Of a DNA stretch of 41,823 bases, positions 7,165 through 21,194 are shown in pieces (position 1 is the first letter of the stretch; every line of letters starts with the position of its first letter). The notes under the pieces were generated by a model that was not told the DNA's origin, did not search any database, and saw nothing but the letters and a program-made list of their open reading frames with translations. A program made the translations under genes and the position numbers. Origin of the DNA: Caenibius sp. (GTDB lineage Bacteria > Pseudomonadota > Alphaproteobacteria > Sphingomonadales > Sphingomonadaceae); assembly GCA_030830695.1 (NCBI GenBank), contig JAURML010000048.1, forward strand, positions 1-41,823, written 5' to 3'.

Positions 7165-7466
7165 GATGCGTCGTTCCTGATGTCTTTCGCGTTTGCGAAG
7201 GGAGATAGGTGAGGGCGGCGCGGCACGCAAGCGCAGGCAAATTTTCCCTGTCGGGGGCCTTGAAATCAGACCGAATCACTCATATTGCCTTCCTTGCGGG
7301 CCGGGCCCCTCTGGCGCGGCGCATTGTCCATCAGGAAATGCGCCTCGTGATGTCGGACCGCATCGGATGTTGCCGATGCCTGGGTCCGGGTTCCTGCCCC
7401 CCTCCTGAAACCCGCAGGCTCGGCACATCCGATCGAACGTCAATTCGTTTCGATAGGGAGTTTACA
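7165..7466. other. Divergent intergenic region between MoxR operon and YdcH gene
   Basis: About 300 bases with no convincing gene; the open frames here have no family features. The region must hold the promoters of the minus-strand MoxR operon and of the plus-strand YdcH gene. The one structured element is a perfect 7-base inverted repeat, GCATCGG at 7360-7366 and CCGATGC at 7373-7379, separated by six bases. No T-tract follows it, so a terminator is unlikely. A good ribosome site (GATAGGGAG, 7452-7460) precedes the YdcH start. I could not identify -35/-10 boxes with confidence. Confidence 0.5.
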
Positions 7467-7640
7467 ATGTCCGACCGTGTCTTCCGCCTGATGGAACGCC
7501 ATCAGCGCCAGGACGATCTGTTGCACCGCGCGCGCAAGCGCCGTTTTGCCGATCCATTCGAGATCGCCCGCATCAAGAAGCTGAAGCTGGCGATCAAGGA
7601 CAGGATCGCCCGCGCGCTCAGGAAACCGAAAATGGCATAG
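7467..7640 (+). CDS. Small YdcH-like (DUF465) protein
   Basis: A 57-residue basic protein, MSDRVFRLMERHQRQDDLL at the start and DPFEIARIKKLKLAIKDRI in the middle, matching the DUF465/YdcH family: one charged helical hairpin with the RIKKLKLAIKD core. The function of this family is not known. The start is the ATG at 7467, with GATAGGGAG seven to eight bases upstream; the frame stays open upstream, but that part does not resemble the family. The stop is TAG. It is followed after about 95 bases by the broken terC gene on the same strand. Confidence 0.8.
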   Translation: MSDRVFRLMERHQRQDDLLHRARKRRFADPFEIARIKKLKLAIKDRIARALRKPKMA

Positions 7641-7734: not shown

Positions 7735-8721
7735 ATGGAATTTTTGCTGGCTGACTGGCTGGGAACGCCAGTGTGGTTCTGGCTGAGCTTTGCGGTCCTC
7801 GTGATCGGGCTGACCGCATTTGACCTTGGCATTCTGCACAAGGACGACCGCGAGATGGGGATTGCCGAATCCCTTAAGCTTTCGGCCTTCTATATCGGGA
7901 TCGCGTTGTTGTTTGGCCTCTGGGTCTAGGCGGAAAAAGGCCCGGATCTGGGCATGAAATACTATACGGGCTTCTTCATCGAGAAGGCGCTGTCGATCGA
8001 CAATGTCTTCGTCATCTCGATGATCTTCACCTATTTCGCTATTCCTGCACGCTATCAATATCGGGCGCTGCTGTGGGGTACCCTGGCCGTGATCGTGCTG
8101 CGCGGAATCATGATTGCCGGTGGTGCCGCGCTGGTCAATCAGGCCTATTGGCTGCTCTACATCTTCGCTGCCTTCCTGATCGTGACCGGCATCAGGATGT
8201 TGTGGGCGACTGATCATCAACCCGATATCGGGCGCAACCCGGTGGTCCGCTGGCTGTCAACTCATCTGCGGGTCACGCCAACCCTGCACGGCCAGCATTT
8301 CTTCGTGAAAGTGCCTGATGAACGCACCGGCAGGCTGGTGCGGGCGACCACCCCGCTGTTCCTGGCGCTGGTGGTGATCAATCTGGCCGATCTGGTGTTT
8401 GCGGTGGATTCCGTGCCGGCGATCTTCGCGATCACGACGGACACGTTCATCGTCTATACGTCGAACATCATGGCGATCCTGGGACTGCGCGCGCTTTATT
8501 TCGCGCTCGCATCCATGATCGACCGGTTTCACTATCTGAAATATGCGCTGGCGATGGTGCTCATCTTCATCGGCGGCAAAATCTTCGTGTCCGATTTTGT
8601 GCTGGGCGGGGACAAATTCCGGCCGGTCGCCAGCCTGGCAGTGACAATCGGCCTGATCGCGGCGGGGATTGTCTGGTCACTCTGGAAAACACGGGGGAGT
8701 GCAAGCACGGTCACCTCCTGA
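7735..8721 (+). pseudogene. TerC family membrane protein interrupted by in-frame TAG
   Basis: Integral membrane protein of the TerC family (metal or tellurite-resistance-like transporters). The frame reads from the ATG at 7735 (MEFLLADWLGTPVWFWLSF) to a TAG at 7927-7929, codon 65, and continues in the same frame as AEKGPDLGMKYYTGFFIEKA to the TGA at 8719-8721. Both halves are plainly one TerC protein: the EKALSIDNVFVISMIFTYF signature lies just after the stop, and FAVDSVPAIFAITTD, the second conserved acidic motif, lies near residue 225. Homologues, as I recall them, have tryptophan after the preceding W-V, so the stop looks like TGG changed to TAG. A separate start at 7954 would omit the first two helices. 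Pseudogene, read-through or sequencing error are all possible. Confidence 0.8.
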
Positions 8722-12003: not shown

Positions 12004-12837
12004 GTGGAAAAAGAACCCCTCCTGCCTGGCCTCTATATAGTGGCGACCCCGATTGGCAATCTCGGGGACATAACATTGCGGGCAATCGACATTCTCACGC
12101 GATGCGACGCCATCGCCTGCGAAGACAGCCGGGTCACCGCAAAGCTGCTGCGCCATCTGGGGCTCAGGCAGCCGCTCTGGCGATATGACGATCACAGCAG
12201 CGAAGCGGACCGCGAACGCCTGATCGCCGCCATGCGTGACAAGCCGGTCGCGCTGGTCAGCGATGCCGGGACGCCATTGATCTCCGATCCGGGCTATCGC
12301 CTGGTCCGGGCGGCGCGTGCCGCGCAGATCCCGATCACCAGCCTGCCGGGGCCAAGCGCGGCGATCGTCGCGCTCACGCTTTCCGGCCTGCCGACTGATC
12401 GCTTCCTGTTCGCGGGCTTCCTGCCGGTAAAGGACAAGGCCCGCCGCGATGTGCTGGACGATCTGGCGCGCGTTCCGGCCACGCTGGTGTTTTACGAAAC
12501 CGCGCCGCGCCTCGGCAAGGCGCTGGATGTGATTGCGGCAGCCTTGCCAGGTCGGGAAGTGGCGGTGGCGCGCGAACTGACCAAGACCTTCGAGGAGTGT
12601 CGTACGGGTTCCCCGCACGAACTTGGCGATCATTACCGGGCGCATCCCCCCAAAGGGGAAATCGTGCTGATGATCGCGCCGCCTGCGTCGTGCGAAGAGA
12701 CGCCAGACGCTGACCGCCTGCTGCTGGAGGCGATGGAATATGAAAAACCCTCGCAGGCCGCCGCACAGGTCGCCCGACGCACCGGGCTGGACCGCAAACA
12801 GCTTTACGCGCGGGCGATGGAGCTCAAACCCCGGTGA
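12004..12837 (+). CDS. rsmI: 16S rRNA (cytidine(1402)-2'-O)-methyltransferase
   Basis: Methylates the ribose of C1402 in 16S rRNA using S-adenosylmethionine. The tetrapyrrole-methylase fold is evident: GLYIVATPIGNLGDITLRAI at the start, CDAIACEDSRVTAKLL, ALVSDAGTPLISDPGYRLV (SAM-binding loop), SLPGPSAAIVALTLSGLPTD and RFLFAGFLP. The C-terminal KPSQAAAQVARRTGLDRKQLYARAM is the family's helix-turn-helix tail. The GTG at 12004 is the chosen start, with AAGGA just upstream; the frame is open further upstream but overlaps the divergent lipoprotein signal peptide. Its stop overlaps the yraN start by four bases (GTGA). Length is 277 residues, usual for the family. Confidence 0.93.
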   Translation: MEKEPLLPGLYIVATPIGNLGDITLRAIDILTRCDAIACEDSRVTAKLLRHLGLRQPLWRYDDHSSEADRERLIAAMRDKPVALVSDAGTPLISDPGYRLVRAARAAQIPITSLPGPSAAIVALTLSGLPTDRFLFAGFLPVKDKARRDVLDDLARVPATLVFYETAPRLGKALDVIAAALPGREVAVARELTKTFEECRTGSPHELGDHYRAHPPKGEIVLMIAPPASCEETPDADRLLLEAMEYEKPSQAAAQVARRTGLDRKQLYARAMELKPR

Positions 12838-13121
12838 GCCGCGCGATGCGCGAGCGGCGGGGACGCGCGGCGGAAGGCCGGGCAGCGCTCTATCTGCGGC
12901 TGAAGGGCTGGCGCATCCTGGCCTTTGTCGAGGTAAAGTGGCGCAGCAGCGCCGAATTGCTGGATCAGGCGATTGACGCGCACCGCCTGCGCCGGGTTGC
13001 CGCTGCAGCACAGGCGGTGATGGCGGACTACATGCAGGGCGCGCAACGGGTGCGGATCGATGTCTTGCTGCTTGCGCCCTGGCGCTTCCCGCGCCACATC
13101 GCCAACGCTTGGCAGCCATGA
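12834..13121 (+). CDS. YraN-family (UPF0102) protein with internal deletion
   Basis: A 95-residue protein whose two ends match the YraN/UPF0102 family: RRGRAAEGRAALYLRLKGWR at the N-terminus, then VEVKWRSSAELLDQAIDAHR and VRIDVLLLAPWRFPRHIANA. Between GWRIL and AFVEVK, family members normally have about 20 more residues containing the conserved GE(I/V)DL segment, which carries an acidic residue of the PD-(D/E)xK-like core. Here GWRIL runs directly into AFVEVK in the same frame. Usual length is about 115-120 residues. The GTG start at 12834 overlaps the rsmI stop. The protein may be folded but probably lacks the nuclease-like centre. The function of intact YraN is not settled. Confidence 0.8.
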   Translation: MSRAMRERRGRAAEGRAALYLRLKGWRILAFVEVKWRSSAELLDQAIDAHRLRRVAAAAQAVMADYMQGAQRVRIDVLLLAPWRFPRHIANAWQP

Positions 13122-20229: not shown

Positions 20230-20685
20230 TTAATCGGTAAAACGCACCACCCCCGCATACACCTCCGGCCCCGAAACCCCCGCCACTTTCACCCCGTTCC
20301 GCAGCAGGAATGCGTGGCGCACGATTTCGGCCTGCTGTTCCAGCCCGTATCGCTCCAGCGGCTAGCCGGGTTTCAGGCTGTAGTCGTAACGCCGGGAAGC
20401 CAGTCCGCGCAGCATGACATAGAGTGCGCCGTGCCGCTGCGCCTGCCAGACATGCGTCATCTCATGCAGGAAATGACCCTGGCGGTGCAGTGAGGCGCCG
20501 CCGAAATCGTCGCAGTAAAACCCGTCGCGCGGGTGGAAATGAATATGCCCGCCCGGCGCCATCATCCTGTTATGCGGCTGAAACGGAAACCATTTCCGGC
20601 GGCGAATGGTAACCCGGCCATAATCGACCGCATCGCCGAACACGGATCGGGCCAGCGCCACCTCGCCTGCGGTCAGGGGGCGCGT
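20230..20685 (-). pseudogene. Vgr-like HExxH zinc-metallopeptidase-fold protein, decayed
   Basis: Resembles the small vgr-related or DUF4157-like proteins of sphingomonads. The readable protein is RPLTAGEVALARSVFGDAVD, then GRVTIRRRKWFPFQPHN, GGHIHFHPRDGFYCDDFGG, the zinc motif HEMTHVWQAQ, and RRYDYSLKPG. A TAG at 20362-20364 then interrupts it, and the same frame goes on as PLERYGLEQQAEIVRHAFLL to a TAA at 20230-20232, again matching the family. The expected initiator position (just before RPLTAGE) is ACG at 20685-20683; the first usable start, GTG at 20661, lies inside the conserved N-terminus. Two independent lesions make a pseudogene the best reading. It follows the copper chaperone gene on the same strand. 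Confidence 0.65.
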
Positions 20686-20717
20686 GCCCCCTGCCGGGCA
20701 GGATGGCGCAGCCGAAG

Positions 20718-21194
20718 TCAGTCAGCCCCTCCGGGCGCTTCGATCTTGGCGTCGAACTGATACTGATCGCCGCCGACGAAAGTCAGCGCCACCGGGGTGG
20801 TGCCGCCCGCCTGAAGGCCCGAATCAAGTTCGTTGATCATCACATGCTTGCCGCCCGGCTTCAGGCTGACCGGCTCACCTGCGGTCACGTTGATGCCGCC
20901 GATCGGGGCCATGCCGGTGACGCCGCCCTGTTCCATGGTGTCGTGCATCTTTGCGCCTTTGCCGCCCTGAACCTGGACCTTGCGGAGCATCAGATATTCG
21001 CTGCCGTTGTTTACAATGTCGAAATAGAGCGCGGCGGGATTCCCTTTGACCGCAGGCAGCACGATGCGCCCGTTAGTGACCGTGACATTGGCCATGCCTT
21101 CCGGCAGCGCTTCTTCAGCGGGCTGTTCGCCGCAAGCGGTCAGTCCGACCGTGCACAGACCCAGCGCGATGGATGCGAAGATAGTCGTTTTCAT
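20718..21194 (-). CDS. PCu(A)C-type periplasmic copper chaperone, lipoprotein
   Basis: Periplasmic copper(I) chaperone of the DUF461/PCu(A)C family, which helps deliver copper to cytochrome oxidase. The N-terminus [20 protein letters not shown] ends in a lipobox LTAC with C21, so it is probably membrane-anchored. The copper motif H-M-x-M...HxM is present as [14 protein letters not shown] and [14 protein letters not shown]. Preceding strands include [20 protein letters not shown]. Length is 158 residues. A strong GGGGAGAGGA ribosome site precedes the ATG at 21194. It is divergent from dnaK; its upstream region contains the dnaK heat-shock promoter on the other strand. Confidence 0.88.

Follow-up and report, generated by a model that had tools for sequence, protein, structure and literature searches.

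The terC gene of this DNA is interrupted by an in-frame TAG at codon 65, a site that is otherwise almost always Trp, and we consider it probable that this is a recent nonsense change that has most likely produced a null allele, the loss perhaps being covered by paralogues. In the window (the whole stretch of 41,823 nucleotides that was analysed), a 328-codon terC frame at 7735-8721 (+) is open apart from this one TAG and reaches its terminal stop at 8719-8721. The parts of the gene are:

7927..7929, forward strand: premature TAG at codon 65, Trp in 94 of 96 distinct homologues
7735..7929, forward strand: 5' part of terC, 64 codons up to the premature TAG, predicted to encode helix one and the greater part of helix two
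7954..8721, forward strand: 3' part of terC, an open frame of 255 aa from ATG, containing the whole PF03741 match (predicted seven-helix core)

With the stop entered as X, the frame matched the PF03741 (TerC) profile at 172.5 bits against a cut-off of 27.8, over residues 78-286 and thus entirely past the TAG. The claim of the earlier note that both sides of the TAG form one interrupted TerC frame is therefore borne out. A TerC frame of 328 codons with a single stop does not arise by chance. The TAG is a true interruption in the sequence as assembled, and one continuous full-length TerC protein is not encoded, codon 65 being TAG under table 11. The terC stretch is present once in its own assembly, besides a 28-base partial match. 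From its family the product would be a putative membrane protein for metal handling; no solved structure matched the TerC protein by sequence at E 0.001.

The conservation of codon 65 was assessed in 98 foreign loci, comprising the best 80 of 193 terC loci found by peptide patterns together with 18 rows from a search of relatives. The patterns did not include residue 65, and therefore Trp at this site was not favoured by the locus search. The codon was TGG in 95 of these loci and a Tyr codon in the other three, and after collapsing them to 96 distinct proteins 94 had Trp and 2 had Tyr, so that the statement in the earlier note that this position is usually Trp proved correct on alignment. Homologues naturally split at this point, which that note had allowed for, were not encountered: no stop or interruption was found at codon 65 in any of the 98 loci (best 80 of 193 plus 18 rows). 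The best 80 of the 193 loci, from named genomes, share 71-83% protein identity with this TerC and their titles are mostly Novosphingobium or other Sphingomonadales. In a loose first look at 97 foreign relatives, which included no same-genus genome, most had no match to this TerC form; 16 matched the protein at E 0.001, and none of the 16 had an internal stop. One relative (G007, C1:492558-493583) has a TerC with extra residues between residues 61 and 75, the frame being unbroken.

Upstream of terC lie two further elements:

7293..7365, forward strand: terC RNA (Rfam RF03067), the operon leader, 55.8 bits against a gathering threshold of 39.9
7467..7640, forward strand: small gene of 57 aa (ORF), which we take to be YdcH/DUF465-like

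At the Rfam gathering threshold, the terC RNA and a tRNA were the only matches in the window, and our literature search found no paper about the terC RNA motif. Among 20 loci of relatives, of which two probably come from one genome, the terC RNA was found upstream of terC on the same strand in 16, and a homologue of the small gene lay between the RNA and terC in 13. Since the terC RNA precedes both the small gene and terC in these 13 loci, the leader may control a two-gene operon comprising the ydcH-like gene and terC.

When the window was compared with its 15 nearest homologues, pN/pS was 0.228 for codons 1-64 and 0.235 for codons 66-320, and the corresponding values among those 15 homologues themselves were 0.232 before the stop and 0.202 after it, which places the 3' part slightly above its relatives (0.235 vs 0.202). 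The 130 columns taken as invariant in 86 relatives show 3 differences in the window, one of them being the stop; for the same columns, 68 of the 86 relatives differ at none, 15 at one, 1 at two and 2 at three. These values suggest that the terC frame was constrained until very recently, or still is, with slight relaxation at most. As there are still signs of constraint on both halves of terC, on the gene next to it and on the leader RNA, the nonsense change would be recent, or else a consensus error of the assembly. The latter would leave the terC of the organism intact, and we regard it as the less likely reading of the two but one with real weight, since the intact state of the rest of the operon and the normal-looking constraint are also what a base-calling error would leave behind, and the genome is in 200 contigs with an estimated contamination of 2.74%. 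The earlier note had ended on two alternatives, a truncated gene or an error in the assembly, and the evidence still stands between them.

The position of the stop within the protein raises another reading. The read-through form, modelled with AlphaFold2 (pTM 0.72, mean pLDDT 77 and every residue at 90 or below), has helices at 13-34, 43-68, 70-86 with 89-100, 105-136, 140-157, 207-233, 237-265, 268-289 and 297-319, and a short helix at 169-177 that stands apart from the core helices. In the model, two N-terminal helices are thus followed by a seven-helix core after residue 69, and residue 65 falls close to where helix 43-68, the second one, ends. Since the TAG splits the two N-terminal helices from a core that is open at ATG 7954, ribosomes could stop at codon 65, restart at this ATG, 24 bases past the TAG, and make the PF03741 core as a second piece. 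The 255-aa frame from ATG 7954 alone matched PF03741 at 173.3 bits (cut-off 27.8), the same score as with the 5' part, and Bacillus TerC proteins are described as seven-helix in one report (Nat Commun 2023, PMC10550928). The low pN/pS of the 3' part is consistent with such a product, as is the longer join of the G007 protein, the unbroken frame of which indicates that the joint tolerates change. We nevertheless consider a restart improbable. The ATG at 7954 lacks a clear ribosome-binding site, matching at best 3 of 6 bases, although this weighs little because the same 3 of 6 is all that the native start at 7735 reaches. Met74 is shared by 78 of 86 loci with at least 74% identity and is therefore an inherited residue rather than a new start, and no relative among the 98 loci is split in this way. 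Furthermore, the modelled helix 70-86 would miss its first residues.

Two further genes among the first found to be interrupted likewise had TAG in place of Trp, and it was therefore tested whether UAG is read as Trp in this organism, by recoding or suppression. In-frame stops flanked by coding signal before and after were sought in 1,205,444 of the 2,528,662 bases of the assembly, window included, with a recall per position of 23% in the first, stricter scan, then 43% and then 61%, the last value being measured in the first of three rounds at the final setting. The final setting gave 111 candidate stops (56 + 21 + 34), and 29 read-through frames from the scans were put to Pfam; the remaining candidates were dismissed on visual inspection, being either antisense frames or the ends of genes that adjoin a new one. 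Also excluded from the count were L162 8440, L204 12474, L157 12277, L272 4384, L280 11825 and L260 8714, together with a TAG-containing remnant of an IS-type transposase (L225 3988). The result was 8 in-frame stops in 7 genes, of which 6 were TAG, 1 TGA and 1 TAA. The genes other than terC are:

20233-20721, reverse strand: second broken gene of the window, TAG at 20362-20364; 5 of 7 homologues have Trp there, and the other two Arg and Lys
G000 contig 82, L167:11865-12956, forward strand: gene of the PAP2 superfamily, interrupted in frame by two TAGs that lie 246 bases apart; in 6 distinct loci, Trp in all 6 at one site, Phe in 5 and Met in 1 at the other
contig 31: CsgG-like gene, TAG; Val in all 3 distinct loci covering the site, 5 genomes matched
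contig 148: chemotaxis receptor gene, TAG; Arg in the best 2 of 13 sequences matched
contig 11: EF-hand gene, TGA; mixed residues in 8 loci
contig 47 (L242 999): Na+/H+ exchanger gene, TAA at what is presumably a Tyr position; the Pfam match spans the stop

The number of stops bears on the possibility of a consensus error, as about one in-frame stop per 150 kb (8 in 1,205,444 bases, at a scan recall of about 61%) could be supplied by a modest error rate. However, the two stops in the one PAP2 gene are poorly explained by a local base error and, being 246 bases apart, resemble a decaying gene more than they do scattered errors. The yraN gene (UPF0102) at 12834-13121 (+) of the window is also shortened, with about 21 codons gone in frame by eye against one relative; it matched profile positions 34-79 of 80, and 6 of 6 relatives matched from position 1 to at least 77. 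As a further oddity of the assembly this is a point against a real change in terC; such an in-frame loss is, however, not readily explained by an error of the consensus either, and the number of broken genes found here is within the normal range for bacteria.

The share of TAG among the stops (6 of 8) is as codon usage predicts for single changes (expected 0.52-0.60, P 0.17-0.32). Three of the six in-frame TAGs are at Trp positions (terC, the gene with 20362-20364 and PAP2), and three TGG-to-TAG changes among 8 stops exceed the expectation from codon usage, with P 0.005-0.038 depending on the weight given to transitions, in what is a post hoc comparison. This would be in keeping with a UAG codon read as Trp, but the other three TAGs stand where homologues have Phe, Val and Arg, respectively, and TAG still terminates 37 of 253 long frames, hrcA presumably being among the genes that end in it. 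The YceG/mltG gene also ends in TAG, and the match ends alike (residues 329-339) in 9 of 10 relatives. The gene for release factor 1 (prfA) is present and intact, its match of 488 bits being above the cut-off. A tRNA with a CUA anticodon was absent from the 48 tRNA matches of a search that was not exhaustive and left some ordinary tRNAs unrecovered, from a whole-genome pattern search (9 hits vs 34 for the reversed pattern) and from the ARAGORN output on the scanned stretches, about half of the genome. ARAGORN added a Leu-CAA tRNA that the first of these searches had lacked. Since the tRNA set is incomplete and ARAGORN covered about half of the genome, it is possible that a CUA tRNA gene was missed or lies in an assembly gap. 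In a Codetta screen, UAG or UGA was inferred as Trp in eight yeasts; the authors ascribed this to pseudogenes, in which most stops are the outcome of a single transition such as that from UGG (PMC8629427), and this would account for the surplus of Trp sites found here (3 of 8). With mixed residues at the sites, TAG still ending genes, prfA present and no CUA tRNA found in these searches, a UAG-as-Trp code was rejected, and read-through of terC by recoding, which the earlier note had raised, is very unlikely. Equally far-fetched is a weaker form in which a tRNA, missed or absent from the assembly, inserts Trp at some UAGs of this lineage with an efficiency that is low or varies with context, so that terC and a few other genes would keep their function.

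We therefore return to a recent nonsense change in terC as the favoured explanation. A single nonsense change would have struck the nearly invariant Trp codon, and translation would then end after 64 residues, giving two N-terminal helices, the second incomplete, with no TerC core. If the base is real in the organism, the truncated product would presumably be inactive and the allele most likely null. The genome holds two further genes that match PF03741, on C146 (171.1 bits) and C194 (60.7 bits), and since these other TerC-family genes are present, the loss of terC may be tolerated, the paralogues perhaps buffering it. That most of the 97 relatives in the loose first look do without a match to this form likewise suggests that it is dispensable. 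In Bacillus, TerC proteins serve the metalation of manganese-dependent exported enzymes (PMC10550928). In practice automated annotation would show a pseudogene or two separate gene pieces at this locus, which is otherwise of little importance. The case is of use as an example of how a handful of TGG codons turned into stops can mimic a stop-to-Trp code, and of how sampling in-frame stops more widely settles the question.

Compared with the TerC family (PF03741), this gene, which we take to be the long, Alx-like form, has the same domain, length, RF03067 leader and neighbouring gene as in the other Sphingomonadaceae looked at, and differs in the in-frame TAG at codon 65. With ordinary nonsense alleles and young pseudogenes it shares a single stop in a constrained frame, in a genome where other genes are hit and all three stop codons occur, and no feature sets it apart from them. 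Stop-to-Trp codes are a different matter: UGA is read as Trp in Mycoplasmatales, Entomoplasmatales and some insect symbionts, according to the Codetta paper (PMC8629427). The likeness to these codes lies in some in-frame stops at Trp positions, whereas here the codon is UAG, the replaced residues are mixed, release factor 1 is present, UAG ends genes and no matching tRNA was found in the searches made. The stop in terC thus looks like an ordinary, recently broken copy or a sequence error rather than a new form of decoding.
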